Shown here: positions 3,522 through 52,580 of the stretch, one piece after another
Layout: each line of letters starts with the position of its first letter
How positions within the stretch are numbered: the first letter of the stretch is position 1
Assembly: GCA_963422465.1 (NCBI GenBank)
Contig: OY730171.1
Coordinates: 2,046,001 to 2,110,000, forward strand
Direction of reading: 5' to 3'
DNA: 64,000 nucleotides
Source: Lichina pygmaea
Taxonomy: Eukaryota; Ascomycota; Lichinomycetes; Lichinales; Lichinaceae
The notes under the pieces: generated by a model
Seen by the model: only the letters and a program-made list of their open reading frames with translations
Told to the model about the DNA's origin: nothing
Databases searched by the model: none
Position numbers and translations under genes: made by a program

Positions 3522-6500
3522 TTACCCCCCTCCTTCACATCGCGAACTCCTGTGAGCCTCAGGCCGCTCGTGGGCGTAGTTCCGTGGCCGTGGTTTCCTT
3601 GGGTATTTCTCATGGAAGTTGTAGATGGCGTCTTTGGTGTTGTCAAGATGCTCAATAGGCTCTTCAGTGGCATCTTCAATTGGCCATCCAGACCATGTGA
3701 CCAGGTACTTGAACTTCTGTCGAGACGTTGCTGGCTTGGAGTCAAGGATTTCTTCAACCTGGAACTCTTCATCTGTGTCTTGACCAATGACAGGGCCAGG
3801 GTGTTCATTTGATTGGCCAGGGATAGGATTAGCAGGTGTCAGACGTAGAAGGGAAACGTGAAAGACAGGGTGGATCTTGAGAGTGTGTGGAAGCTCCAGA
3901 TGGCAGGCACGGCTTCCGACTGTCTTCAACACCTTGAATAGTCCAATCCACTTGTCGTCAAGCTTTTTGCATGGGCGGCGTGTCCTGATGTTCTTGGTAT
4001 TCAGCCAAACAAGATCTCCAGTTTGATAGGACGGTGACGGGACTCGATGCAAATTGGCGGCGTGAGCTTGAGCTTCCTGGGATAGTCGGAGTTCCGCTTG
4101 CAACTGTTCCAGAATCTGCGTCATTTCTCCAGAGATTTCCATAGCATCTTGGTTGCAGGCTTCACTCGTGGGTGTGATGCTGAGCCGTGGATGGAACCCT
4201 TTGTTGGCAAAGAACGGTGACATGCCAGAGGAATCAGACTGGGAGTTGTTCTGCGTGAACTCTGCCAGAGGAATCCATTGGACCCAGTCATCTTGGAGAT
4301 AGTTGACATAGGATCTCAGGTAGCGTTCAAGCTCCTGATTCTCTCGTTCTGTCTGACCATCTGTCTCTGGGTGGTGTCCTGAGGATAGTCGTAGCATGAC
4401 ATCAAGATGGGCACAGAGTGCTTTCCAGAATAAGCTGACAAACTGACCTCCTCTGTCTGAGACAATGCTCCTGGGTAAGCCATGGGTACGGACAACAAAC
4501 TGGATGAACATCCGGACAAGATGCGAGGTTGTCATCTCAGCACATGGCACAAAGTGGCGTTCTTTGGTGAGACAGTCAGTGATGACCCAGATGTGCTTGG
4601 CACCAGGGAAGCAGGTATCTCTTGACTTGGGCAAGTCAGTAATGAAATCCATAGCCAGATCCTGCCAACGTTGCTGAGGCACGGGAAGAGACAGCAGCTC
4701 TCCTTGGCGATCACGGGCAGGCTTTGCTTGAGAGCAGACATGACAATTCCTGATGTACTGCCGTATGATGTTCACCATCTTTGGCCAATAGTACCAACGA
4801 GACAGAAGATTGTGGGTCTTGGCAATCCCAGTGTGGCCAGCCATTGCTTGGTCATGGGCTTCTTGGAACAGGCGTAGGTGTAGCTCATCGTTCTCAGGGA
4901 TCCAGAGTTGGTTCTTGTAGAAGAGACGGTCATTTTCCAAGCTGCAGTCTGAGAGAGACACTTCTTGACTGTGCCTGACACCATCCCTTAGCATCTGTGA
5001 CACTGTTGCCACTGGGTCACCTTCAGCAAGGTTGTTATAGGCAGCTTGGATGACGTCTGAAAGAGGTGTAGCATCAGGTTCAGTGTCAACTGGTGCAGCT
5101 TCTGAACGTCTCAGGATCCGGATGGACTTGACTTGAACCTCTGAATGTGCAAGATTCTTGGGCTTGAGGACGACTTGCTCCCTGAAGTCTTGACGGGGAT
5201 CACTGTCTGACGGGAGGTCTTGGGAACGTCGAGTGAGGGCGTCAGCCTTGCACTGACTGCCTGGACGGTAGCTGATCTTGAAATTGAAGTGTGACAAGAA
5301 CTCACTCCAACGGGCTTGACGGCGGGAAAGGCACTTTGACGACATGAAGTACTCCAAGTTCTTGTGATCAGAGATCACTTTGACAGGTTCTGGAGATCCT
5401 TCAAGCTCTGCTCGCCATTCTTCAAAGGCACGGACAATTGCCAGCAACTCTTTGTCGTAGATCTCGTAGTTGCATTCTGCCGGCAGGTGGCGGCGTGACA
5501 AGAAGGCAACAGGGCGTAGAACTGCTTCATGATCTGGCTGTGACAGGACAGCACCAGAGATGTAGTCAGAAGCGTCAGTCTCAACAACACACTCCTTCTC
5601 CAGATCAAAGTGCTGCAGGATGGGTGCAGTGCTGAACGCCTTCTTGATGCTTTCGAACAAGCGCTGCTCTGGGGTTTCCCACTTGAAGGCAACATTCTTC
5701 TTGGTCAGAGCTGTGAGCGGGGATGCAAGCTTGGCAAAGTCTTTGATGAACCAGCGGTAGAAGTTTGCAAAGGCAATGAAGCTCTGCACTTCCTTGAGAC
5801 TGGCAGGAGGATTCCACTCCTTGATGGCGTCAGTCTTGGCTGGGTCCATGCTCACAGATCCGGGTCGGCCATCTTCAGTGGCAGACTGAATGATGAGGCC
5901 AAGGTACTTGACTTGATGCACTTCAAAGTCACACTTGGAGATGTCAACTTGCAGGCTTGCGTCTCGTAGTCGACTGAGAACAAGCTTGACGTGCTTCCGG
6001 TGTTCCTTGAGTGTCTGACTGTAGACAAGGATGTCATCCACATAGGCAGTGCCAAAGACGTCAAGGATGTCAGGTCCCAAAACATCATTGATGTAGTTCT
6101 GGAATGTGCTTGGAGCATTGGCAAGACCAAAGGGCATGACAAGGTATTCGTAGAGGCCTGAGCGTGTGCGGAACGCAGTCTTCCATTCTTCACCTTCCTT
6201 CATCCGGATACGGTTGAAGGCACCAACAATGTCAAGCTTGGTGTACCACACAGCTTTGCAAAGCTGGTCCAACATCTCCCGGATCAGTGGTAGGGGGTAA
6301 CAGTTCTTGATGGTGATGGCGTTGAGTGCTCTGTAGTCTACACAGAAACGCAATCCACCTCCTGGCTTCTTGACAAAGAGGACTGGTGCAGCAGCAGGTG
6401 ATGAAGATGCTTGAATGAAGCCCTTGTTCAGGTTCTCTGTCAGGTACTTCTTGAGAACTTCAAGTTCTTCTCTGCTCATGCCGTACAGAGGTCCAGAGGG

Positions 6501-6809
6501 TGCCTGGGTTCCTGGTTCCATCTTGATCTCGTGGTCAACTCCTGGGCGTAGAGGAGGAAGCTTGTCAGCGTCATCCTTGCTGAAGACGTCCAGGAACTTG
6601 TGGTACTGAGCAGGGAGAAGTGTGGCAGGATCCACGCACTTCTTTGGCTTCAACGCCTGCTCAATGTCTCTCAGAGAAACACTGAACACCTGGTGATCTG
6701 GCTTGGCAGCAAGGAGAGAAAATGCGGCAGCATTGATGGGGATTGGTGTGGCAGAAAGGGGCTTGGGATCCTGAGGCTTTCCAGCAGACGTCTTGGCTTC
6801 AAGATCCAA
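3522..6809 (-). CDS. Element B pol: reverse transcriptase, RNase H, integrase, chromodomain
   Basis: One open frame of 1095 codons. Family motifs in order: RT palm with the metal-binding YVDD motif (around 6040), RNase H with DASDYISGAV (near 5560), the integrase zinc-binding HHCC region (HLRLFQEAHDQAMAGHTG... CHVCSQAKP), the integrase catalytic core (DFITDLPKS; SDRGGQF), and a C-terminal chromodomain (KYLVTWSGWP near 3700). Chromodomains of this kind target integration to heterochromatin, which fits insertion into another retroelement. The frame runs to the LTR edge. The element is treated as a fossil. Confidence 0.93.
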   Translation of the reverse strand: MDLEAKTSAGKPQDPKPLSATPIPINAAAFSLLAAKPDHQVFSVSLRDIEQALKPKKCVDPATLLPAQYHKFLDVFSKDDADKLPPLRPGVDHEIKMEPGTQAPSGPLYGMSREELEVLKKYLTENLNKGFIQASSSPAAAPVLFVKKPGGGLRFCVDYRALNAITIKNCYPLPLIREMLDQLCKAVWYTKLDIVGAFNRIRMKEGEEWKTAFRTRSGLYEYLVMPFGLANAPSTFQNYINDVLGPDILDVFGTAYVDDILVYSQTLKEHRKHVKLVLSRLRDASLQVDISKCDFEVHQVKYLGLIIQSATEDGRPGSVSMDPAKTDAIKEWNPPASLKEVQSFIAFANFYRWFIKDFAKLASPLTALTKKNVAFKWETPEQRLFESIKKAFSTAPILQHFDLEKECVVETDASDYISGAVLSQPDHEAVLRPVAFLSRRHLPAECNYEIYDKELLAIVRAFEEWRAELEGSPEPVKVISDHKNLEYFMSSKCLSRRQARWSEFLSHFNFKISYRPGSQCKADALTRRSQDLPSDSDPRQDFREQVVLKPKNLAHSEVQVKSIRILRRSEAAPVDTEPDATPLSDVIQAAYNNLAEGDPVATVSQMLRDGVRHSQEVSLSDCSLENDRLFYKNQLWIPENDELHLRLFQEAHDQAMAGHTGIAKTHNLLSRWYYWPKMVNIIRQYIRNCHVCSQAKPARDRQGELLSLPVPQQRWQDLAMDFITDLPKSRDTCFPGAKHIWVITDCLTKERHFVPCAEMTTSHLVRMFIQFVVRTHGLPRSIVSDRGGQFVSLFWKALCAHLDVMLRLSSGHHPETDGQTERENQELERYLRSYVNYLQDDWVQWIPLAEFTQNNSQSDSSGMSPFFANKGFHPRLSITPTSEACNQDAMEISGEMTQILEQLQAELRLSQEAQAHAANLHRVPSPSYQTGDLVWLNTKNIRTRRPCKKLDDKWIGLFKVLKTVGSRACHLELPHTLKIHPVFHVSLLRLTPANPIPGQSNEHPGPVIGQDTDEEFQVEEILDSKPATSRQKFKYLVTWSGWPIEDATEEPIEHLDNTKDAIYNFHEKYPRKPRPRNYAHERPEAHRSSRCEGGG

Positions 6810-6848
6810 AGAGATTGGATAGCTATTGTTTGACTTGAGGCATGCGGA

Positions 6849-7211
6849 TCAGCAGTGATCTGACTTGAACATGATTGAGGTGTTTGTCCAATCAATGTGT
6901 GGCCTGTGCTTCTGGAGCCATGGCATCCCCAGAATCACATCATAGTGAAGACCAGGAGACACAAAGAGAGAGACTTCCTCCTGGTGTACGCCATGTGCTG
7001 TGGTCATGATTGTCTTGGCGAGATGCGTGGTTTGTGACGTCTTGCCATCGAATGATCGCAATGTGCGTGGGTAGGGGAGAGGTTCTTGGTGAAGAGATTG
7101 CGCAAAGGAAGCACCAATGCAGCCAAATGCTGAACAGCCAGAGTCAATAAGAGCATTGCACTTGAATTTCCCATCTAGGATACAAGGAAGAAACAAGCAC
7201 TTGCTGTCCAA
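6849..7211 (-). CDS. Element B protease region
   Basis: An open stretch of about 120 codons between gag and RT that carries a retropepsin-type motif (ALIDSGCSAFG) and ends in the ILGMPWLQKH motif, which also marks the protease-RT linker of other fungal Ty3 elements. It lies in a different frame from its neighbours. How this class expresses gag-pol was not resolved here. Confidence 0.8.
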   Translation of the reverse strand: MDSKCLFLPCILDGKFKCNALIDSGCSAFGCIGASFAQSLHQEPLPYPRTLRSFDGKTSQTTHLAKTIMTTAHGVHQEEVSLFVSPGLHYDVILGMPWLQKHRPHIDWTNTSIMFKSDHC

Positions 7212-7282
7212 TCGCTGGTCTGGAGACAGATAGCCAACATGGAGATCCTTTTCATGTCCTTGGGCGCGACGATGACCAAGGA

Positions 7283-8239
7283 CTACTTGTTTTCCGACTC
7301 TGGAGTAGTCTCAACAGTGGCAGACTTGGTGGTGGTCGTGGTGGTGGCAACAACAGGCATGCTTTTCACTGGACAGAAGGTTGAGACGTGACCCTGGTTC
7401 CCACAGTAGAAGCAGAGGCCTTTGCTTCGGCAACGTTCTCGCTCTTCTGGCGTCAGCTTAGAGCGGCTGAGATCCATGGTAGGACTTGGTGGCTGTGGCG
7501 TGAAGGCTGGCTTGATGAACCCTGGACGCAGAACTGAAGCTCCTGACCGTGGAACTGAGGCTTGGGTGGGAGGTGCTTGACGTGGACGGCGAGAGTTGGC
7601 AGAAGTGGCACGCAACTGGTTGTCCTGCAGCTGGCATTCCTCAACAAGCTTCTGATAGCTGATGTCCTTGAGGTTGATGCTGACAAGCTGCTTGGCAAGC
7701 TCTTCAGAGACAGCGCATCGAAGATGGCACTTCAAGGCCTTGTCGTTGAAGCCTGTGCGTGGAGCATACTGATTGAACTCTGTGAAGAACTCGGCAAAGG
7801 AACGGTTGGCCTGACGTAAGGTGATGAGCTTCCTCTGAGCTAGGAACTCTGGGTCTGGGTCGGAGAAGGCGTTCCGGAGATCTTGGACGATGTCGTGCCA
7901 GTCAATGTACTGGCCAGCCGTGATCTTAGCTGAGATGTAGGACTGCGCAGTGCCAGTCGTGCGTGAAAAGACGTACGCAATCCGCGATGTTTCCGTGGGG
8001 TACCAGTCAGCGTTGAGCGTCATCTTGAGTGACAGTGACGTGATGAAGCTCTCAAGCTTCTCATGCGTGATTTCCGTGTTTCCGCCATCGCCACTGAAGA
8101 TCTCTGGGTCAGCAGTGCGTTCGGACTTGGACTTGGGAGTAGTGTTAGTAGCTTGAATTCGCATGAACTCTGCAAACATGTTGCGAAGGAACTCGTCATT
8201 TCCAGCAACTGGCATGGCTTGGTCTGGTTGTTGAGACAT
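7283..8239 (-). CDS. Element B gag
   Basis: 318 codons starting MSQQPDQAMPVAG. The central part is a retrotransposon gag (capsid) domain with W/F-rich helices (ADWYPTETSRIAYVFSR; YIDWHDIVQDLRNAF). A CCHC zinc knuckle near the C-terminus (CFYCGNQGHVSTFCP) would bind element RNA. The start lies about 60 bp inside the 5' LTR edge at 8300, as expected for gag. Confidence 0.9.
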   Translation of the reverse strand: MSQQPDQAMPVAGNDEFLRNMFAEFMRIQATNTTPKSKSERTADPEIFSGDGGNTEITHEKLESFITSLSLKMTLNADWYPTETSRIAYVFSRTTGTAQSYISAKITAGQYIDWHDIVQDLRNAFSDPDPEFLAQRKLITLRQANRSFAEFFTEFNQYAPRTGFNDKALKCHLRCAVSEELAKQLVSINLKDISYQKLVEECQLQDNQLRATSANSRRPRQAPPTQASVPRSGASVLRPGFIKPAFTPQPPSPTMDLSRSKLTPEERERCRSKGLCFYCGNQGHVSTFCPVKSMPVVATTTTTTKSATVETTPESENK

Positions 8240-8299
8240 GACAAGGACGTGAACGTGGCTTGGTGAAGTGTCTTATGGTTGGGTAGGTCTTTCGTAGTG

Positions 8300-11500: not shown

Positions 11501-13370
11501 ACAGTACGTACACTACAAACCACAGGGTGTACAGTAAATACGTGAGGTCCCCGAGTCAAGTCTACCAGAGACAAAAATCCTTCAAGAAGTTCTGCATGGC
11601 TTAACAGCCAAATCAGTGTAAGAATCAAATCAAAATCAAAAACCACAACAATCCAGCACATAGTCACCCAGGAATCACCAAAACCACAGACCTTATCCAA
11701 CAGGCAGGGAACAATGTCATCAACCTCTGACAACATGTCACAAGCTACATCAGCAAATATCTACTGTGCCAGAAAAACAAACACGGAAGACACAAGCCAT
11801 ATGGAGAAGGACACCCGAACATGATACCGAGAGACCTGTGGGAAGACATATCAATAGACTTCATCACAAAGCTACCCAAGTCCAAAGACCCAGTCACAGA
11901 AATCACCTACAACTTGATTATGGTGATAGTGGACAGATTCACAAAATATCTAATAGTGGTACTATTCAAGGAGACCCACACAGCAGAACAGTTGGGACAC
12001 CTCTTACTGGACAGATTGGTCAGAGACCACAGAGTTCCAATCATGATCATTACAGACAGAGACAAACTCTTCACATCCAACTACTGGAAGACAATCAGTG
12101 CAGCCATAGGAACAAAACCCAAAATGTCTACAGCCTATCACCCACGAACTGACAGCCAGACAGAGCAAGCAAACCAAGTCCTGGAGACTTACTTACAGTA
12201 TTACATCAACCAGACCCACAGCAATTGGGTACAGTTATTACTGGTGGCACAGCTGGCAATCAACCAGCACAGATCAGACTCAACAAAGGAATCACTATTT
12301 TTTGCTAATTTTGGACAACATGTGAACATCAGGATACCAAGCAGAGCTTCACCAAACACGGAGAAAGCACTCCAACATGACAAGCTCCTACAACAAACAC
12401 ACACAATGATGAGGCACTACCTTCAAGAGACCTCAGAAAGAATGCAACATCAAATAGACAAGAAATCAAAAATGGCACCTCAGCTAAAGAAGGGGGATAA
12501 AGTCTACCTCCTCACAAGAAATTGGAAAACACAAAAACCAAAGACAAAGAAACTTGACAACATCAAGGTCAGACTATTTTCAGTTGAAGAGAAAACAGGA
12601 CCAGTCAACATCAAGATACAACTACCAAGGGATGCCAGAGTCCATCCAAACTTTCATATATTGATAATTGAACCAGCCGACCAGAGCACACCCTTGCAGG
12701 AAATATTCCATTATCAACCCAAAGAAGAACAAGAGTTCAAAGTTGAACAGATCCTGGCTAGGAAAGGTCAGCAATACCTTATCAAGTGGAAAGGATACCC
12801 AGACTCGGAAAATACCTGGGAACCACTCAAGAACTTCGCAAACTGCCAGCTTCTTCTGTGACAGTTTCGGCAGGAGCAGGACTGAACAGCTTGGCCTGCA
12901 GGAGGGACATATCAATAACTGATCAAGTCAAATTCTTGCCATCTGACTCTATCTCTTTCACCAAGCACTGAAGCTTCTGCCTTGCACAGACCTCAGCGCC
13001 CTCTAACACCTTTCACTTCTGAGACAGACAAGCCTGCACCATGGCAAGTTGTTCAAAGAGTGTGTCGCGCATTGCCTTGTCAGCAGCCACATCCTCACGG
13101 AGGTTGTCCCGGGACATGTTCAGAGATTCCCAGGACATAGAGACACAAGACCTTCCATGCTGAGTGCACGCAGTATATTTCAACTTATTGTCTTCTCCTG
13201 GCATCTGGAAGCACAGACAACCACAGAGAACACAAAAGTCGCAGAGCGTACGTGAAACAAAACCCTGATTATGGATTTGAGCAGCAAGCTGAGTTCAGCT
13301 AACAGTCGCACATGACTTTGGAGGCATGACCAGATTTTATCAAGATGATGAAAGATGGAGAGGAGGATAG
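8572..13370 (+). mobile_element. Element A pol region: protease, RT, RNase H, integrase, chromodomain (fossil)
   Basis: Sequence resumes exactly where element B interrupted it. Recognisable parts: protease active-site motif LVDSGASGNYIS near 9210; RT fingers and palm roughly 9760-10480; RNase H with NKELLAVVNALEHW near 10840; integrase core roughly 11820-12330 (DFITKLPKS; YHPRTDSQTEQ); chromodomain LIKWKGYPDSENTWEP near 12780-12830. About 500 bp of untranslated sequence follows, with a purine-rich tract just before the 3' LTR. The region is broken by several interruptions and by the SINE at 11205-11641. Confidence 0.9.
11205..11641 (+). mobile_element. SINE with tRNA-like head inside element A
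   Basis: A 437-bp insertion between RNase H and the integrase zinc-binding region of element A. It is flanked by perfect 12-bp direct repeats ACCACAACAATC (11193-11204 and 11642-11653). The 5' end contains TGGTGTAGTGG, a full match to the polymerase III A-box consensus (TRGYNNARNGG). No good B box was found. The 3' end is an A-rich tail of AATCA-like repeats. Variable-length duplication plus A-rich tail means target-primed reverse transcription. Its last ~45 bp resemble the tails of the insertions at 28119 and 38955, which suggests shared use of one LINE machinery. Not coding. Confidence 0.82.
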
Positions 13371-28347: not shown

Positions 28348-31300
28348 AGGGCCAGCTCTCTCCAACAAGAACAACATCACAAGCTTCTTCTTGCCGTGCC
28401 GCCAGAGTCGATCGGACCGTAGGCCTGCCGGCACCGAGACGGCACCCTCTCTCCCTTTATCGTCTTCCCGACCCTAGGCCGCCGGTAAGAGATGGTGAGG
28501 GTTGACTACGTCAGCTCTACGATACCGTAGCAGGTGGGAGAGCTGATAGAGCTGACGGGGCTTTTCCGGCCTCAGAGGTTCGCTCGTCAGGGTAGAGCTA
28601 CGGCAAGACCGCCGGATTTCCGAAGGAAAGGGTGTCAGGTGTTTTGAGAGATGGGAAGCGCGAGTGCTTGAGTACTTCGAGTCTTGTGCCTACAGTAAGA
28701 TCCCTTACAGTATGAGAGAGCTTGACGTGTTTGCCCCGGCGTGCCTGCTTCGATCGGTCATGGTCTCATGGTCCGTCTGGTCGTGGTGCCTCTTGACTTA
28801 CTCGTAGGGCCGTCCAGTCACGGTACTGTATGCAGTATGTCTTATTACCGAGTCAGCACTCACTGGCTTCTTCGATGGGTCCAATCAGTCAAAAAGCATA
28901 GGTAATGCGTAGTGGTAGTGGTTTCCTGTCCGCCAGAGTCAATTCTCTCGACCGTTCGGCCGATGTCAGGATTACCCGGTCAAGCCGGTCACGCCGGCGT
29001 GACTTCATCTCAATCCATACTCAGACACAACTTATCTCGGCAACGCCGAGTACTGTACCCTTGTACGTATGTACCGTAGCGTGCGCGGCAGCCGAGCGTG
29101 CCAAGATATTCGGTATGGGCTATGTTACGTACAAGTCAGGGTCGGTGACAAGCCAGCAAAAGGGGCCGACCATCGGGGAAGAGAAAGCTGATCCAGTGAG
29201 GCCTCAAAGGGGCCGAGACGGATGCCGTATCGGCAAAGATCTCTGGCCGACCGAGTCCCTCCTGACTAAGCTTGGCCGGCGGCGCCAACAGTGGGCGAGC
29301 TCGAGCCAACAGTTCGTCGGACAGGAGCTCTTCGGTTGAGGAGGATTCTCGTCTCACGTGACCTAACCCCAGAGTAGCTCTTACCATACTGCGTCTGTAC
29401 GAGTTTATGCTCGTGCGTATGTATGTCTCAACTAAAACCACGGCCACTACGGCACTCAAAGTATTGCCTCGCGGCAGTCGAAATATCGATTCAGACTTCA
29501 CGACCCTGACCTCGACCCTGCCCTTGACCCTGACCATGACCCCCGTCTGTGCGAGACATTACGTCACCGCGCTCACCTCCAGTACTCTGCTCCATTCTTT
29601 CGTCTTTTCCTAACAGAAGCAATCGCGGCGGCATTGGGCTCGGTCGTCGCCTATAATTAGTTGCCCCCGCTAGGCACTCCCGACAGAACAGCTGCGCCGG
29701 CATGGATTCGGTCGTGTTGGTCTATAGTAGCCTGGCGGTGGCTTCACGGTATCGCCTTTCAGTACGTACGTACATATTGCCGTATGTACAATCCCACAAG
29801 CCCTAGCCCTTCAGGCCTGATCGTGCATCAGCGACGAGAACAGGGCGAAGAACGGATCACAGCAGCATCTCTTTCGGATGCTGTACTCGTACGAGTATTC
29901 CGCGCTGCGTAGCTCCTTTTCGATTCTCTGTTTTCTTTTTTTCCTCTGCTGCCATGCCGGCAGCGAGCTACCAAGTTCGTCTGTCTCTTGTGTCCTTTTC
30001 CGGTCCGCATGGACCGAATGTCGTGACCACATGTCGTGGGACGGTGCGATGCCGTGTGAGTTTCTTGCGCTTGGCGGCTGGCACGCTGCTTGCAGCTTGC
30101 AGCCGACGGCACCTGCCACTGCTGTGAGAGTACGTAACGTACATACTGTACGTGCAGCAGTAAGCAAGATATTCTCCGGTTGGGTTGCCTTTTTGGCTGC
30201 GTCTCGTGTCCCTCCATCGTGTGTTGAGAACAAGGACTTGGTGTGGCAGATGCTCGAGCACAGAAAAGGCGTGTCAGCAATAAGTGCTGCGTCTACTTTC
30301 GTAGTGTTATCTACGGTACGTACGTATGTACGTACTCCCTGTAGACATGACCGTTGATGAGCGTCTTCTCCCACAGGCCGCGAGAGAATATATGAGAGGC
30401 GTCTTGTCTTGGGACTAGTGCAGCCTTGTCGATGCTCTCTTTCACTGCTCCTGCCGTGTAATCACAATCAACAAGTCTCTTGTTCTGCAAGATTGGCTGC
30501 AGCCATCTCGTCGTAGCATCCTCGTACGTTACGTATGTAGCTGCTCGAACATCGAGCAGCAGCCCCGCATCTGCAGCGAAGATTGTTCCACATGCAGCAG
30601 TGCAGCTCAGCTACGGTACTGTTCTCTTGCGATCGCGGTGGATCGTCAGCCTCGTGCTGCTGCACTCCGTACTGTACATCATCTTTGCTCCCTCCATGTC
30701 GGTGGGAAGGAATCAGACAGCCTTGATCGCCAGATGCTGGGTCAACCTTGGCATCTACACCTCTGGCCAAGTAATCGACGGCTAGACGGCCCATCCTCCT
30801 GCCGTACTGTGCCAACGGAGCACCGTCTCCGTTGTCGAAGGCGGGTGGAGGCTTGAGGACAAAGACGAGCCGGGCCCCTTGACGCCGCTCGCCGACTCTC
30901 CTGTCCAAGTCCGTGTCAGTCCGAGCGATCTCCGACGGGAGACCGGCACGGCGACCTTTTCGTCGGTCCATGGAGACTTCGCAAAGAATGCACCTGGGAT
31001 GCCATCTTCGCAGACCCCTCGAGGCTTGTCCGGCTCGCTCTCGGCAGGGATGTGAGAGCGCCCCTCGGACCCGAAGTTTCGACGAAGAAACCTCCGACAT
31101 CTCCTTGCCCCAGCACATGTGCTTACCCACCTACACTTCCGTACAGCGGCCCGCAGTTTTCGTCGCTCTCTTACCGGATCGTTGCGTCTCTCGGGCCAGA
31201 TTGATTCTGAGAGGGAGCGCGCCGATGCTCTGCAGAAGCATCTGCAGCCTAGGCACGCTAGGGTACATACTACGTACGTACCCAAGTACGTACCGGTAGC

Positions 31301-42598: not shown

Positions 42599-44028
42599 GG
42601 CTGGTGGTCGACAGCAAGGAACAGGTATTGACGATGTTGCTACTGAGGACAGGACCATGATCTCGAGAGCATCTAGAAACATTTCGAGCACTGACGATCC
42701 TGCCGACAAGGAAGCATTGTTGAATCATGCTTACATGCTGTCTTTCTGTGAATTTGATTTCCTTCAGGAGGCAATATCGCTGTGTCCCAAGTTAGGGGCG
42801 TCGCAGTCCAAACCCAGATCTTGCAAAGGGTTACCTTACCGTACCGTGCGTACCAGGGTTCAGTATCGAATCTTGCCACACTGAAGACAGATTTTTCGAT
42901 GTTTCTTCGCGTTTGACCGTGGTAGCCTGGACGGTTGCCAGCGAGGAAGGCTGTCGACGAGCTGATGATCTGCTGCGATGTTTCTGGCGTCATGCATCGT
43001 GATAGCTTGAGCGGGGATCAATACCGGATTAGTCAGCCAATTATTGACACGTGACTGTCGAGCGAGTACCGTATGGAAGTACAGAAGTACGTATGATAAT
43101 GACGGTATGAACCGATGCACCTCAGTGTCAAACCGATTCGCTGAACAGCCGCTGTGTATTTACTACACTGCATCTGTGCATAGTGAATTACAGATGATGT
43201 CGTCTGCTTCTACGTCATCAATCTCTGCTGCCACAATCTCCGCCACATGGATCCCGTCAGCCACTGAGACCCATCCTCTGGGTTTCCCATAGGATACTAG
43301 CAGTGACTAGGAGATGCTGGAGACCATTCACATTCAGCCGTTGTGGCTCAAAGTCCATCTGGAGTATCAGAGTCAAGCGCCTTTTCTGGTCCAGGCTGGA
43401 CTATCTCAACATGCTTGAAATCGGGTCCTGTGGCTACCATGGGTGCCAGCGCATCCGTTGCGCGACTGCTCCAACCAGTACTCGATACTGGATACTGTTT
43501 TCTTATATCTGGAGCTAGATCTACGCATGGCAAGGCAGTTCCTTGGACAATGGACCAGTATGGCCCGAGAGGAAGAACGATGTCAGATCCACTGTTATCA
43601 TTATAAAGGGACAGTGAAGCATGCGCTGCGGCGGAGCCGGCGCATTGCCTGCTCAGAGTTCTTTTCAAGGACCTCGATCACACGTCATTCAAGCCAACCT
43701 GCATTTCCTTTCTGGGCTGGCAAATGAAACCTGTCTTGCCACTCGCCTCCTCTCTCTCAGGCGCAGTTTTCCGACCTGCCATTTGCCTGCGCTTGCACTA
43801 CAGGGTCTGCTGGTGACTTTCCCCAGGGGCCCTAGCGCATTCCCTTGCTTCGGTGAATTGAGCTTCCAGACGCCGGTCGTCTATAAAGCCGGCTCTCTAT
43901 GCTGCCATCCATCAACATCCCTCTCATCGCCGTTCCCTTCTCTTCACGTGCCTTCAAAGCCTTTTGTTCAACCTAGACCGGTCAGCTGCATCGGGACTGC
44001 TTGAAGCTGTCCCCATCAAACTGCCGAC
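42599..44028. other. Intergenic stretch, 1.4 kb
   Basis: Promoter side of the eisosome gene, which must also contain its first exon. A minus-strand open stretch 43348-43668 reads protein-like but has no motif or start context. A TATA box lies at 43882. Otherwise nothing recognised. Confidence 0.45.
43882..43887 (+). promoter_or_regulatory. TATA box of the gene at 44029
   Basis: TATAAA in the context GTCTATAAAGCC, 142 bp before the ATG and followed by a CT- and CATC-rich leader typical of fungal transcription start regions. Confidence 0.6.
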
Positions 44029-44682
44029 ATGTGCCAGACCGTCGAGACGACATTCTCATGCGGCCATGTAGTGCCCTACTCCATCCCCTGCGCCGAATGC
44101 ATGGCTGCCAACGACCTACCGTTCTGCCCGACAGTCCCAGACGGACGCGAGACGGTCTTGTACAACACGCAAGCCGGCTCGTGCTTTGAATGCATTGTCG
44201 CCGGCGACCCGGAGCTGCAGCTGCTCGAGACGCCTCGCAGCGTGCCGCAGTTCTTCTGGCGGCAAGCATTACGCTTCACGACCTGCGGGCATACGTCCGT
44301 GCCGGTGACGACGGAGAACGAGGTCGAGTTGAGTCTGATGGACGAAGACGCCTACTGGGAGGGCGCGCTGCACGAGGAGGAGTTTGTGCTGTACGAGGAC
44401 TTTGAGGGACTTTGCTGGGACTGTTTCTTGCGCGTGCACCTCGAGGACCTCGAGCATGCGCAGGACCTGGGACGCGGCGCCGAGTCTGGTGCGATCGCCG
44501 ACAGGAGCGTTTTCGACGACCGGGGCTTTGGCGTCGACGGGGACTCCGCGATGGCGAACGGCCTCGGTCAAGCTTCGCGGCAGGATGGCGATGTCGACGC
44601 CCCGCACGACGGGCCAGATGCGGGCGTCGCCGACGGGGACGACGGCAACGAGACTGGGCGGCGACGACGGGCACGAGGCTGA
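44029..44682 (+). CDS. Small Cys/His-containing protein of unknown function
   Basis: Intronless, 217 residues; ATG in context CCGACATG with a TATA box upstream. The first 140 residues are cysteine-rich and look like a divergent internal pair: TVETTFSCGHVVPYSIPCAEC and ALRFTTCGHTSVPVTT with a later GLCWDC. Each half has a C-G-H and a C-x2-C, so each could hold one metal ion; that is inference. There is no signal peptide or membrane segment. The C-terminal 75 residues are an acidic, Gly/Asp-rich tail ending in GRRRRARG. Small C-G-H proteins of this layout occur in filamentous ascomycetes as uncharacterised proteins, as far as I recall. Function unknown. Confidence 0.75.
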   Translation: MCQTVETTFSCGHVVPYSIPCAECMAANDLPFCPTVPDGRETVLYNTQAGSCFECIVAGDPELQLLETPRSVPQFFWRQALRFTTCGHTSVPVTTENEVELSLMDEDAYWEGALHEEEFVLYEDFEGLCWDCFLRVHLEDLEHAQDLGRGAESGAIADRSVFDDRGFGVDGDSAMANGLGQASRQDGDVDAPHDGPDAGVADGDDGNETGRRRRARG

Positions 44683-44749: not shown

Positions 44750-46001
44750 TCACCTGGGAGACTGCTAGCTATGCCGGGCATGGAAAAACAGGTCACTTCC
44801 GACTCAACCGACCGGTGTGCCACCTTCTTTAGCCAACAAGCTCTCTCGCACATGATGCCCGTGCCCGATTCCAACCGGAAAAGAGGACCCATCACTCTGC
44901 ACGCTGTACATAGAAGATCTCTCTCCTTGCTTGTCCCCCTCATTCTCCCCCGCTCTACTTCTTCTTTGCCACGGACGTTCCTCCTCGGAGCCGTTCCAGC
45001 CGTTGCCCAGTCTACCACTTCTGCCACTTGACGTCCGCGCTCGACAATGCCAAGCAGACGTTCAGAGTCGATGTATTCCCCTCCGATCTACCACATGGAC
45101 CACCGTCCCTCGTCTCCTCTCTCCTGTACCGGGCACGACCATGTGGCCCTTGGAGCCGACTGAGCCCAGAGAGCCTCGGCCCTCGTGCGCTGAAGTAGCC
45201 AGTCTTGCGCACGTCTCCGACTAGACGAACCCAATCGAACCACGTCGCCGGTACAGATGCACCGCTCAGTCCGCTGTGCCTCGTGTCTCGACGGTGTTTC
45301 CCAGCATCGTCCTTCCGTCAGGGCTCTTTTAGTCGACTCCGCTACACTACGCTTTACAATACCAGCTGCAGTATCTTCCACCACCTAACCCATTCCTCCT
45401 TCTCCTCTTCTCCCCCTTCTTCATCGCCCGGTCTGGGAGCACTAACCCAACACCAGCTCAGCTCAGGTCAATTCAATTCAATTCACCACGCCGGTCCCTC
45501 CATCCCAACCAATTCACTTCTCGCAGTTTCAGCTCGATGCAGATCAAGCTTCACCTGACTTGCTTCATTGCACCCGGAAGCTAGCTTTGTACGGAGTACA
45601 CAAGGCCGAATGGATTTTTCGTGACAGACCACCCAGGAAAGGTACGGTGTGGAGCGATAGGCATCTGCTGTACGGAAGTATGTGCTCGGTACGCCATGTG
45701 CTCTGTACTCGCACCGTGCTCTGTGCAGAGGTCGTGGTGATGCCCTTGTGGGTAGCTGACGTACCGGTAGTTGCTGTAGGTAGGTGGGGTGAGCAGGGTA
45801 GCTACTGCAAGTAGCCACGGTACGTAAGCGGGGTACGTATGTACCGTAAGCGGATAAGTAGGCATGTAACTTAGGCAGGGTAGCCAAGTAGGTCGAACAC
45901 AGTACAGTACGTCTGTAGGTAAGCAGATGCAGTACGGAGTACGGAGGCCCGCGCCAAAAGTATTCGGGAACTTTTCTATAGAAGTGACAAGAGTCGTGAT
46001 A
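44683..46001. other. Intergenic stretch, nothing recognised
   Basis: Includes a (GAC)n tract at 44718-44746, CT-rich DNA at 45390-45440, a short AATTC repeat at 45468-45483 and GTACGTA motifs at 45820-45930. No supported gene. Confidence 0.5.
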
Positions 46002-46616: not shown

Positions 46617-47925
46617 TCAGAAAACACCCCTTGGCATGAACGACCTTGCTCGCGGCGGGCTCGCCCAGCCTCTGTCGTGCGCCGCAGCATCGGGCGCGAC
46701 GGTCCCTCTGGATCGAGGCTGCCGCCCAAAGTACCTGATGAAGAGCTGAAACCCGCGATCGAGGAGATCATTGTCTGTGCCCCGTCGTAGGCGTCGTCTG
46801 TACTCGGGCACTCCCGTCCTGATTTCGCGCTGGGGGGGTTCGTTGGCATCATCCCGCGTCGGTGCACCCGATGCTTCACCCGGCACTTCGCCCGGCAGTC
46901 CCGGCTCTTCTTCTCCGCTGTCGATGTTACCCTCCGAGACGGGCGTCGACCCGCTGTCACCCACACCATCTTGCGCTGAAGGGGTGCTTATCCCGGGCTG
47001 TTGTGCTCCATCGGAATTGGCTTGGCGAGAGCTCCGTCGGGGCCGCGGCGGTATCCCGTGACGCTCTCGGCAGATCGAGTCTATGTAGGTGAAGCGGCGG
47101 CCGTCCGAATCGCCTTTCGCGCGCACCTACGTTTGGTCGCGCCTAGTCAGCTTGAAAGGGCTCGGTAAGTCTCCAGTTCCAGCAGATGCTATATCTGCGA
47201 CCAGACACCTACAAATGCCTCCAGGTTCGCGATGCACTCCTCCAGGCTCGCGCCCTTGTCGGGCATCTCGTCCGGATGAAGATCAAAGTAGCCTTCCCAG
47301 TACACAGCACTAAACCGTGGAGATCCATCGGACCGTAAGGGTAACGGCCTTGAAGGTTCTCTCGTCCAATCGGCCACCTGCTTTCCGATGGTTGTCCTTC
47401 GTGGCTCGGCCTTTGGGTACACAGGGCGTTCAGTGTTGTCCATGCCATGCATCTCGAGGCATTTGGAGATCAGATACTGGTCACGTCGGTCGTCTCGGTC
47501 CCCTCTGGACATCACCTGTGGGGTTCACGAGCGTTAAATATATAACTGAGAAAGGCATACATCTGCAGACAGCCTAGCGTTCGCCAGAGGGAGGGTCTCC
47601 ATACGTAACGCTTGAGGTTGATAAAGCATTCGTGATTGTTGTTTCCCTTGTCAGGAAGTTCTTCGGGACGCCTCTTCCACCAGTCTTCCCAATAGGCTTT
47701 ACTGAATCGAGGCATCCGAGGCCGAGCCGGGAAGCGCTTTCGAAGCCTCGGGGAAAGCGACGAGACTGCTCCAGCAACGCGCCTGTTTTGGAGGGTGCTC
47801 CTCGTGTTGTCATCCTTGGGGAGGGAAGCGGGGCCAGCTTCTCTCAGACCTCGATGGTCGATTCTTGTCCCCTGGGCCGCAGCGATGCTACCTCCAAGGC
47901 ACACCACCGCCCACAGAAGATGCAT
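46617..47925 (-). CDS. Secreted protein with two 60-residue YWE-PDKG-EC units; candidate effector
   Basis: Three exons, 47925-47605, 47515-47213 and 47126-46617, giving 377 residues. A signal peptide (MHLLWAVVCLGGSIAAAQG) leads a basic pro-region with a Lys-Arg site (LRKRF, residue 64) that Kex2 could cut. Two units at residues 72-131 and 173-232 align without gaps, with 29 of 60 identical. Consensus: PRFSxxYWE, PxExPDKG, EC, NL, V, GDxDxRR, Y, C, HG. Each unit has two Cys, suggesting one disulphide. Each unit is split by a phase-0 intron after its residue 36, and both acceptors are followed by GTG (Val), so the second unit arose by duplication that included the intron site. The C-terminal 145 residues are low-complexity (Pro/Gly/Glu, then basic). 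A TATA-like box precedes the start. I know of no matching family; the function is not known, and the effector role is inferred from secretion, duplication and accessory surroundings. Confidence 0.8.
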
Positions 47926-47983: not shown

Positions 47984-49248
47984 ATGTCTGGGGTCCTGCT
48001 CCCCCGCCACCTGCAGCCGTATTGAACGGGCCGTACTTCCGTACGGACCGTACTTCGGACTGATTTGATGGACCTCCTGTGCATGTTTTGCTTAGGTGCC
48101 AAGGTCCCGTATGCAGCACCCTGTCATCGGTGCCTGGATCCTCGTAAAGTGTCTTTCGTAGGATGCTTGATGACCACACAACGCTGCAAGACATCTTCGG
48201 AGCGTTCTCGCTCGTTTCGAAGTCAGCTCTGCACACGATCGCGAGCCTGCTGGTTGTTGTCTTACCGTGCCCTGTGGTCGTCGCAGATGTGTCCCATCAA
48301 GCTCCGCAAGGAGCCTCGGCGATTGAGCCGTCACTCGCTTCGTGGCGGCGCACAAGCCTTTCTGTCGGAGACGTCTGACGGTCGATACTCGCTGAGCAGA
48401 CGACCTCGAGCCTCATAACGCCGAGACGACGCCGCTGTCGGCCCCCCCCCACTGTCGCGATGCAGTGCCATGTTATCTCAGACATGCCATTACGAGTGGA
48501 GTTAAGCTTCAAGCTGCAAGCTTCACGAAACGGGCTTCTCGAATGAACTGCCGTACGGTAAATGCTTGGCGGCACGAGCGGGAGCCGGTACGGGTACGGC
48601 CGCCACAGATGCACAGATTGGTCTGCGAGTCGGAAAGGGATTCAAGTACGTATCGCATGTTACGCCTACGAGGTCGGTCTCCAGATATCTCCGGAGGTAC
48701 GCAGGTACAGGCGCCGCCGATAATGATCGGCTCTCGGTAAATATGAGAAGGTCGACGTGAAGAAGCTCCGATGAGAAAACTTCTCGAGTGCCGTCGTGTA
48801 ATCAACTGCCGGTTCTGTGCGCCCGGAGATATCTGAAGACCGACCTCGTACGTACGTGACGGGACTCTTCCGGAGTGTTCGAGAAGCACGTGAGATGATC
48901 TGTCCGCGGCCCGGTGGATCCTGATCGGCTGGTCAGCCGTCTTGCCAAAGCGGCCTGCGTCTGCCTCACCAAGTTTCGGGTCGTCGCGCGCTCAAGCCCC
49001 TCCCGTTCCTCCCGCCTCAAGCTGCTGCTGTTCGTGGCTTCGACGCTCCGTTCAGGCCGCGAGGGGAAGGGAGAAGGTGCATCGAGACCTGACGATCCGT
49101 AGTATCAAAAGATTGCTTACTTCGGCGTGGATAACCCAATGGAATGGAGAAGATGCAAGGATATATACGTAAAAGGAGAAGTCACCGATAGGCCCACGTG
49201 GCCAAAACATCCGTAGAAGGGCCACCGGCCCAGATGATATGATCCCCG
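47984..49248. other. Intergenic stretch with a long inverted repeat
   Basis: No supported gene. A 28-bp inverted repeat is at 48667-48694 and 48823-48850. A poly-C run is near 48442-48450, and TACGTACGT is at 48848. Confidence 0.5.
48667..48850. repeat. Inverted repeat, 28-bp arms (27 of 28 pair), 128-bp spacer
   Basis: Arms TACGAGGTCGGTCTCC... and their reverse complement. Could be the ends of a 184-bp MITE or a stable hairpin. No target duplication seen. Confidence 0.6.
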
Positions 49249-50291
49249 TCATCCTCCCCCACCTCCGCCCGACATGTCCCCTCCAGCGCCATGTGAGCCG
49301 GCGTGTGTATCGGTGTGATAAGCACCCCCGGCTCCGCCGATCCTGTAATCGTAATCTTTCCGCGGACGGCCGTGGTTGACCGGAGAGGTGTGAGAGGCGT
49401 TGGTGGTTGGACTTGCCGTGGCCGTCGGCTGCTGTGGGTGTTGCTGGTGCCGATACTGAAGAGGATGATGCCCGACTCCGTGACCGGCCGGAGCGCTGCT
49501 GGGCACCGGGGGCGCGCCACGGTTGTGGGCATACGGATTCGGGTCGTACGAGGGTGGGCCGGCGGGGTATGTCGTCGAGCTCGACGGGCTCGAGGTCGAG
49601 CCGATCACGCCGGGATGTGGGTGTTGCTGGGGGTGCTGGCCGAGCACCGGCGTCATGGGCGGAGATGGATGAAACTGGTCGAGCTCGACGTCTGCGCCGG
49701 CGTGTCTGCGTTCGTCGTAGATACGACGCTCTTGGGCTGCCTGCCACGTCGGCATCGGCTGCAGGGCGTCGGGGTTGGTGGCATGGCTCTGCGACGGGGG
49801 GTGCTGCGGAACGGCCGGGCTGGACGGCCCCCGCCCACGGTAGGCCGCGGCGTGGCCCAGTGGCCAATTGTTGTAGGCAGGTGGTGGCATCGGCGACGGA
49901 GGGGCTTGCGGCCCGAGCCCCTTCGGTTCGTCGCCCGCCGCTCCTCGCCGCCGTCGACGACGACGACCGCGACAGCATCCGCAGCATCCACAGCAGCATC
50001 TCGTGCCGAAACATATGCAGCCGACGAGGCACCAGACGATGACGATGCTGACGAGGCCTGCGGAGATGATCGCTGCAATGACCGGCCATCTGAGGTTCGA
50101 CGGCACGATTCGAGTCAGCTGCCGTCGATGCGATGAGTCCGAAGCTCTCCTCGGCGCCGGAGAAGCGCCGGTCGGAGGTGGGGAAAGACCAACTTGCAGT
50201 ACGACTTCGACATGCATTTGTCCCAGCTCGAGAGCGTGTCCCGCGACCCGGATACGTCGCTGCCAGCGTCCTGTCGGGGGAAGACGGCCAT
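49249..50291 (-). CDS. PIN2-like (PSI induction protein) single-pass membrane protein
   Basis: Two exons, 50291-50194 and 50089-49249, giving 312 residues. The N-terminus SSWDKCMSKSYCKWPVIAAI is the family hallmark, with the intron inside the Lys codon before WPVIAA. One membrane segment (residues about 34-57) is followed by a Cys-rich stretch (CICFGTRCCCGCCGCC), likely palmitoylated, then seven Arg. The rest is a Pro/His/Tyr/Gly-rich cytoplasmic tail (PPPAYNNWP, PAGPPSYDPNPYAHN) with PPxY-like sites that could bind Rsp5-type ubiquitin ligases. It ends in GGGGGG. Yeast Pin2 is a plasma-membrane/trans-Golgi cargo; role in filamentous fungi is poorly known. Start ATG chosen from the short leader and match to the family. 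Confidence 0.85.
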
Positions 50292-52580
50292 GGTCGCTGA
50301 GCTGTCGCCTGCTGTGGTTAAACACGGCCGAATCGCTGTCTGGGAGCGACGCAGCAACGCAGACGGCGCGCTCCGCTCAGGCGCCTGCCTGCCGCGGCCA
50401 CTGCTCCAAGCAGGACGCGATGGATCAAGATCGGTCGCTGCACGTCGGGCCGTCCCTGTATTCGGTTACGACGCCGGTAGCTCGCTTCTCCACGTCCGCA
50501 AGCGAGACCTCTGATGTGAAGGCGTGGCACGATAGCTTGACGATTCGCGATCCAGCCAGCGTTGTCGTCGTCACCGTCGTCGCCGTCGTCGCCGTCGTCG
50601 TCCTGATGAGTCGCGATTCTCCAGGTCCGGTCTCGGATCCAACAGATTTGCCCGGAGACGATCCAATGCCGAGCGTGGACGGGACGATGGCTCCTTGCAC
50701 TGTATGTTACGCGGTACGGTAATGCAGGAGATTTGTGTGGGAGTAGAACTCGGCCGTTTCGCATCAAATTAACGGTACGTAACGTACGTAACGTAGCTGG
50801 GCCACGCAACCACAGCAGCGACGGGCAGGCCCGTTCGACGATGGGTGAAGGCGGAAGACAAACGCGACCGGCCTGGTTCTCGGCTGGTCGGCGGGCACCA
50901 GCCACGTCTTTATCAAGTGCAGATGCCCGGCAGGCTGGCCGACCGCACGAGCACAGCCCCGGACGCCGTAGCCGTTCGCCACCGCGCAGGTACCGTACTG
51001 CAGCTCAGCAGTGCGGTGGTGACGGCCGCTTTGCATGGCCGCCCCGCTGTAGGGTGACAAGCGCCTGTGAATGCCCGGTCGGGCTGCACCTGGATTGGGC
51101 ATCCACAGGCCCGACTAGCCCTGATGAATTGGTGGCTCGAGACCGTTTATAAGTTATGATCATGTACTGCTCGAATCACAGGCGTAGGTAGCTCAACAAC
51201 CTTTGTCACACTTCGCACAGCCTCTTCCTCACGACCGGTGGCGTCAACGCCCGGGACGACTTGAAAAAGAGAAGCCGGCGAGCGACGTAGAGTGACTGAC
51301 TGAGGCATTGTCGACTCTATATTTGGGCTGTAATGTACTGTACGTGCGGCGCCGTACGGAAGCTGTACCGTCATAGCTGAATCTTTAAGAGATCTACATA
51401 CTTTTCTACGCGTGGCCCCGGTAGTGCTGGGCTGAAGCGCCGGCAAGGTTGATGATTTGCATGGTCCTCGCAGCTCTACGCTGTAAGTTGACTCGTAGAA
51501 CACGGTCGTCTACGTCGTCCGTGTGTACGGTACCTTCGTACGTATCGTACGCCTCGTACATCCACTACCTAGCTCCGGGTCCGCTATGGTAGCACCAGCT
51601 GTCGGGTAGCGAAGTATGTAAGGCTTTCTCCCGACTGGCCGTGTCGTTGAGTTTGGTATACGACATCGTGGCGTCTCGTTGTTCGAAGCGGCGGCTGTCT
51701 TCCCGTGCCAGGTCATGGTACGTGGCTGGCTAGCCCTTCCTACACCGCTTGCGGATGATCGTGGCGCACGACGTTCCGTCGCAGGTCGCCAGCTTCGTCT
51801 TGATCCAGGGTATCGTCGGTCATCCGATCCCTGGACACCACCTAGGTCGAGACCGTTGGCTTGAGATCTTGGCCATCTCTACTTTCTACGCTGGCTATAG
51901 CTGTCACACGAATCGGAGCTTGTCATCAGAATCGGCACGGAGGCAGGTGGTTGCATGTGGCCCTTGATGTCTGAAACCATCGGGGCGCTGCCCTCCATCG
52001 ATCCCCAATTGCGGCTAGCTTTTGATTCGGTCTGAAGCCAATGACGTGCATCGTCGATGAACGTCGTCGACGTAGCATCGTCACGATTGGCCTGCGGACA
52101 GGCTGAATCATCTAAATGCCTTGGTGCTGATAGATCGGCGACGACATGAACGACTTGGCATTATATAGGACGCGCTGCAGAGTTGACATGCACCTTATCA
52201 CTGTCTTGTTGGCAGAGCGGAAGAAGCACATGCGAAACCGGCGGAAAAGTGTCCGCTGCATGACATCGACCATGCCAAGTCGTACACTGAGAAATCAACC
52301 CGATCAACCCGATCAACCCGTGTGAAAGCGCCTGCGATGTACTATAAAACCCGTTGGACCCTCATCCGACATCCGAACTTCGTTCTCACGAAGCACGCCC
52401 GTCTGAGCAATCCCGCGAGAAAGAACGAGGAAGGGTGGACATGAGAAAAAGCAGTTCTGCAGGTGTGTGATTCTGGGGCTAGGTCGGTGGAGTCCTTGTC
52501 GTGTCGAAGAGTCATTCCGTTCCAGGTCTCCATCCTCGTCCGACCAAGCCTGCGATCCATCTCCGCCGTCGTCTCGTCCT
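50292..52580. other. Intergenic stretch, 2.3 kb
   Basis: Promoter side of the PIN2-like gene and 3' flank of the RCR-like gene. Contains a (GTC)n tract at 50564-50603, TAACGTACGTAACG at 50778, more GTACGTA motifs near 51530-51550 and a short CGATCAACC repeat at 52298-52320. No gene supported. Confidence 0.5.

Follow-up and report, generated by a model that had tools for sequence, protein, structure and literature searches.

The window analyzed here, a 64,000-nucleotide stretch of the Lichina pygmaea genome (contig OY730171.1), carries on its minus strand a gene at 47925-46617 whose three exons join in frame to encode a protein of 377 residues. The gene is located in the chromosome interior, at about 2.09 of 5.30 Mb and away from the ends; the genome from which the window was taken comprises 32,469,017 bases in 8 contigs. 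Exon 1 (47605..47925, minus strand, as are all features of the gene given below; 321 nt) contains the start codon, a signal-like N terminus, and the first half of a unit that is repeated within the protein, and its product matches P0001 from the protein set searched. It is followed by intron 1 (47516..47604, 89 nt, GTATGG...CCACAG, phase 0), which lies within unit 1 after the residues NLKRY. Exon 2 (47213..47515, 303 nt) encodes the second half of unit 1, a linker, and the first half of unit 2, and intron 2 (47127..47212, 86 nt, GTAGGT...ACGTAG, phase 0) lies within unit 2 after NLEAF. Exon 3 (46617..47126, 510 nt with the stop codon) encodes the rest of unit 2, followed by a tail of 145 residues devoid of cysteine. 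Both introns are spliced out in P0001 and interrupt their units at the equivalent residue, and no sequence similarity beyond chance was found between them (92 of 500 shuffles scored at least as well). A simple branch-point pattern was present in intron 2 and absent from intron 1, a minor point against the gene model.

The 377 residues of P0001 are all identical to the three-exon product. This protein carries the source label 'lgn', which we take to refer to the Logan assemblies of public reads, and comprises 3 members on 5 contigs, the longest of 3983 bases. Since neither 89 nor 86 nt is divisible by three, an unspliced reading cannot yield P0001, which argues for a spliced mRNA. Additionally, P0003, a protein of source 'ena' predicted on a 2.1 Mb contig, includes translated intron sequence of the sister gene described below; the gene caller there did not splice, so the 'lgn' proteins are most likely derived from RNA. 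The gene is thus apparently transcribed, a conclusion that would be weaker if the 'lgn' source models introns.

At the N terminus, residues 1-17 (47875..47925) form a putative signal peptide with an A-x-A motif before Q18, the predicted cleavage point. The call uses only the hydrophobic N terminus, seen in the hydropathy profile, and the A-x-A rule, features that suggest export of the protein. Its mature form would have 360 residues and holds four cysteines, two per unit, ahead of the long cysteine-free tail. The dibasic listing places an LRKR motif at residues 60-63 (47737..47748). The Kex2-like site of the initial annotation is real as a motif, but it has no counterpart in the sister protein, P0002, whose sequence ahead of unit 1 contains no KR or RR.

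Regarding the genomic surroundings, 15 stretches of the window were scanned with Pfam, 14 of them among the 39 listed reading frames of at least 220 amino acids. A Ty3-type gag-pol element with a chromodomain was identified at 3522-8272 and a second integrase-chromodomain piece at 11731-12861. The earlier description of the gene as lying beside transposon relics is therefore unsupported, as about 34 kb separate it from the transposon genes identified in the scanned stretches, and no other genomic copy of the nearest inverted repeat was found (261 bases of flank searched); degraded relics may still lie in the rest of the flanks. This repeat (48667-48694 and 48823-48850) has 28-nt arms that are 96% complementary, lies upstream of the gene at a distance of about 740 bases, and, over 48667-48850 as single-stranded DNA, folds far better than shuffled sequences (z -6.58). 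The nearest scanned frames, at 44005-44682 and 49249-50376, gave no Pfam match; the latter encodes 375 residues that include a hydrophobic stretch and end in a proline-rich tail. Farther out, Pfam identified genes encoding a proteasome subunit, Pil1, an amino-acid permease, a UTP23-like protein, a PP2C phosphatase, an isopropylmalate-dehydrogenase-type protein, a cleavage-stimulation factor, and a tyrosinase. Two short words were over-represented in the whole window and located outside the gene (e.g., at 29762-31293 and 45590-45942), namely GTACGTAC, with 15 occurrences against 0.37 expected, and TACGGAGTAC, with 4 occurrences against 0.06 expected.

Two-unit architecture and sequence constraint

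The repeated units correspond to residues 72-131 and 173-232, which align without gaps and share 29 of 60 residues. Unit 1 is divided by intron 1 into a first half holding Cys100 (residues 72-107; 47605..47712) and a second half holding Cys126 (residues 108-131; 47444..47515), and unit 2 is divided by intron 2 into a first half holding Cys201 (residues 173-208; 47213..47320) and a second half holding Cys227 (residues 209-232; 47055..47126). The cysteine pairs occupy matching positions in the two units, 101 residues apart. The best gapless self-match of the protein was found at this same offset of 101 and scored 166; in 1000 shuffles, scores averaged 32.8 and never exceeded 57. Most of what the initial annotation had read from the letters was borne out by these results: the three-exon model, whose spliced join agrees with P0001 and so passes the test of transcript support, the secreted appearance of the product, the internal duplication into two gapless 60-residue units, and the two cysteines at equal positions in each.

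When the units were compared by codon position, identity was 68% at first, 62% at second, and 32% at third positions; by the NG86 method, dN was 0.50 and dS was not estimable. Substitutions have saturated the third positions and silent sites, yet the protein has been kept, the pattern expected of a selected coding sequence. A crude test of the units lent no support to helix periodicity or to a helical fold (3433, 396, and 4047 of 5000 shuffles were at least as good). Unit 2 is acidic, with a computed pI of 4.95.

A sister gene and the extent of the family

Searching the genome with each unit returned, besides the focal gene, one locus near 3939465-3939605 of a different chromosome, C2 (E 0.0227 and 0.0014). 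A third match (E 0.055) was rejected as a chance hit to a low-complexity, glutamine-rich stretch. The genome holds at least two such genes, a count from a search that scored only the best candidates and ignored introns. The sister gene is represented by P0002, a spliced product of 329 residues on a 1346-base contig, which maps to positions 4210-5429 of L012. Its splice junctions differ from those assumed in the search query, so P0002 was not derived from that query. Three introns interrupt the sister gene, the first of 79 nt in phase 1 and the other two, of 87 and 64 nt, in phase 0; these latter two, after NWLTW and NWLDW, fall at the same unit residue as those of the focal gene.

P0002 resembles the focal protein in its signal-like start (judged by eye), its two units, the gapless W-to-C spacing in the first half-unit, the phase-0 intron at the same residue of each unit, and the second cysteine at the 19th or 20th residue past that intron. 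It differs in overall sequence (27% identity in the alignment), in one additional phase-1 intron, in units free of internal KR or RR, and in its tail. A profile of the focal half-units scored 56.0 and 30.5 at the two units of P0002, whereas none of 3000 shuffles of this protein exceeded 29.0. Across the four units, W, P, G, C, N, and the second C are invariant, and all four fit one module, W-x11-P-x2-G-x5-C-x2-N-x3-aromatic, the intron, 18-19 residues, and C; the second halves require one gap to align. The presence of an intron inside all four units makes it most likely that the ancestral unit already bore one. Agreement over 34 half-unit positions was 15 within the focal pair, 12 within the sister pair, and 8-10 between focal and sister units. 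On these alignments, either the units would have duplicated in each gene after the two genes split, or an old duplication would later have been homogenized within genes. The mature proteins are basic, with computed pI values of 9.59 and 10.17.

The wider spread of the family was approached with several queries. A 37-residue consensus query, drawn from all four half-units, recovered these four, by construction, and nothing else to E 10 (4 candidates scored). A profile search with exon-sized pieces (273 candidates scored) returned three proteins, of which P0003 and P0004 each represent part of one or the other of these two genes, at exon scale, on contigs whose lengths disagree with this assembly. 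The third, P0005, comprises 84 residues, is related to the sister gene, and comes from another assembly, where its contig measures 787,586 bases; 43 of 58 residues (74%, counted from the alignment) are identical to P0002. As judged from this alignment, at least one more assembly, a diverged one, contains a member of the family. The full-length focal query returned only P0001 among the best 7995 candidates, where even P0002 was absent, and the full-length sister query gave no further family members among the 3506 candidates scored; the protein search requires shared five-residue words and easily misses distant relatives. Overall, the sequences point to a small and apparently lineage-restricted family whose spread has been weakly tested.

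Comparison with known families and secreted effectors

The initial annotation could not assign the units to any family, and the searches support this: neither Pfam nor NCBIfam nor the solved structures yielded a significant match. Specifically, no Pfam model was found for the focal protein to E 5 or for P0002 to E 0.001, and no NCBIfam model for P0001 and P0002 to E 5, although silence from this prokaryotic library means little. One of the four units touched a domain of unknown function weakly (E 0.14). Among the solved structures, two matches to P0001 (E 0.75 and 0.87) were located in the tail, one match of P0002 to an engineered protein (E 0.033) was likewise in the tail and outside the units, and eleven matches to the unit profile were short and weak (best E 1.6); all were discarded. 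Searches for Enterotoxin (PF01375) and GH7 (PF00840) found nothing, a result of little weight, as 14 control genomes also gave 0. Rfam had no match within the window, a scan for bacterial promoters upstream of the gene, a method unsuited to fungi, was empty, and the single pattern used against viral contigs had no match. A literature search retrieved no description of this two-unit family, a text search being unable to find a sequence.

Orphan secreted families are common in fungi. Candidate secreted effectors as a general class are marked by a signal peptide and by the lack of a transmembrane span and of a catalogued domain. The focal protein shows a hydrophobic start, a putative signal only, and no Pfam match, while its 360-residue mature form with a long tail exceeds the typical small secreted effector. 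A closer comparison is offered by the Y/F/WxC effector candidates of powdery mildews, which, in the available part of their description, have an aromatic-x-Cys motif near the mature start and a phase-1 intron (PMC2886064). The likeness lies in an orphan protein of secreted type with a cysteine motif and a conserved intron position common to its members, as far as that part of the source describes them (PMC2886064). The aromatic-x-Cys motif itself, however, does not occur in P0001 and occurs once in P0002, at residues 234-236, and the two focal introns, one per unit, are in phase 0 as opposed to the phase 1 described in the same excerpt (PMC2886064), which places the focal protein outside the Y/F/WxC definition on both counts.

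Functional interpretation

Taken together, the locus holds a real, constrained, and apparently transcribed orphan gene whose product is of secreted type. The family is new at the sensitivity used and ordinary as a kind. What had been a single odd protein becomes a small family with a definable module and with evidence of splicing and constraint, and is for these reasons well suited to structural studies and to deletion of the gene. Because orphan secreted families are so common in fungi, the gain is one well-documented case and no new principle.

Fungal orphan secreted proteins often act extracellularly on host or competitor targets. The interpretation we tentatively prefer, and to which we would give slightly less than an even chance, is that of a secreted-type, apparently lineage-restricted protein whose paired modules of about 60 residues serve as an extracellular two-site binder of a host or competitor target. 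The protein would likely enter the secretory pathway, the two cysteines of each module would form one disulfide, and the paired modules would provide two-site binding outside the cell; whether the target would be found on a host, on a competitor, or on the fungus itself is a guess. Points against this interpretation are the size of the mature protein, the position of the gene in the chromosome interior, the unsupportive helix test, and the weakly tested narrow spread. An effector or toxin role is plausible, and the protein may be regarded as a candidate for one. A broader proposal, which we consider possible but more doubtful, is that the module represents an undescribed disulfide-bearing domain, with an ancestral intron in every copy found, that one fungal lineage uses in pairs in secreted proteins acting on another organism.

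Several other explanations were weighed against that of a two-site binder. The product could be a secreted antimicrobial or toxin-like protein directed at competing microbes instead of a host, as the secreted-type start, the basic mature proteins, and the paired cysteines would allow; the acidic unit 2 and the lack of significant similarity to any catalogued family speak against it, and we consider it unlikely. Equally improbable in our estimation is a protein that the fungus uses in the structure or development of its own surface or spore wall. In favor of this role, one could cite the genes of core metabolism and cell function farther out in the neighborhood and the long cysteine-free tail after the units, but it fits poorly with the lack of a wall-type Pfam domain and with the narrow spread within reach of the searches.

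Less probable again is a precursor from which Kex2 would release two peptides of about 85-90 residues, each with a single module. In its favor, the dibasic sites KR63, RR146, and RR238 of P0001 bracket its units, and RR119, RR160, and KR248 of P0002 follow or separate its units. As with the Kex2-processed repeat proteins, in the part of their description available, a signal peptide (here putative) is combined with internal repeats and surrounding dibasic sites (PMC6339444). These proteins carry three or more near-identical motifs according to that portion of the paper, and three similar repeats are the minimum in the pipeline it presents, whereas the focal protein has only two, long, units (PMC6339444). 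Unlike the proteins described there (PMC6339444), P0001 also has five KR or RR sites inside its units, at positions 84, 85, 105, 117, and 218. Finally, a drifting orphan gene without function, to which the lack of a homologue beyond close relatives at limited search sensitivity might point, is hardly credible given the saturation of third codon positions (32% identity against 68% and 62% at first and second), the dN of 0.50 with dS beyond estimation, and the existence of a sister gene that shares this architecture and likewise has a spliced product.
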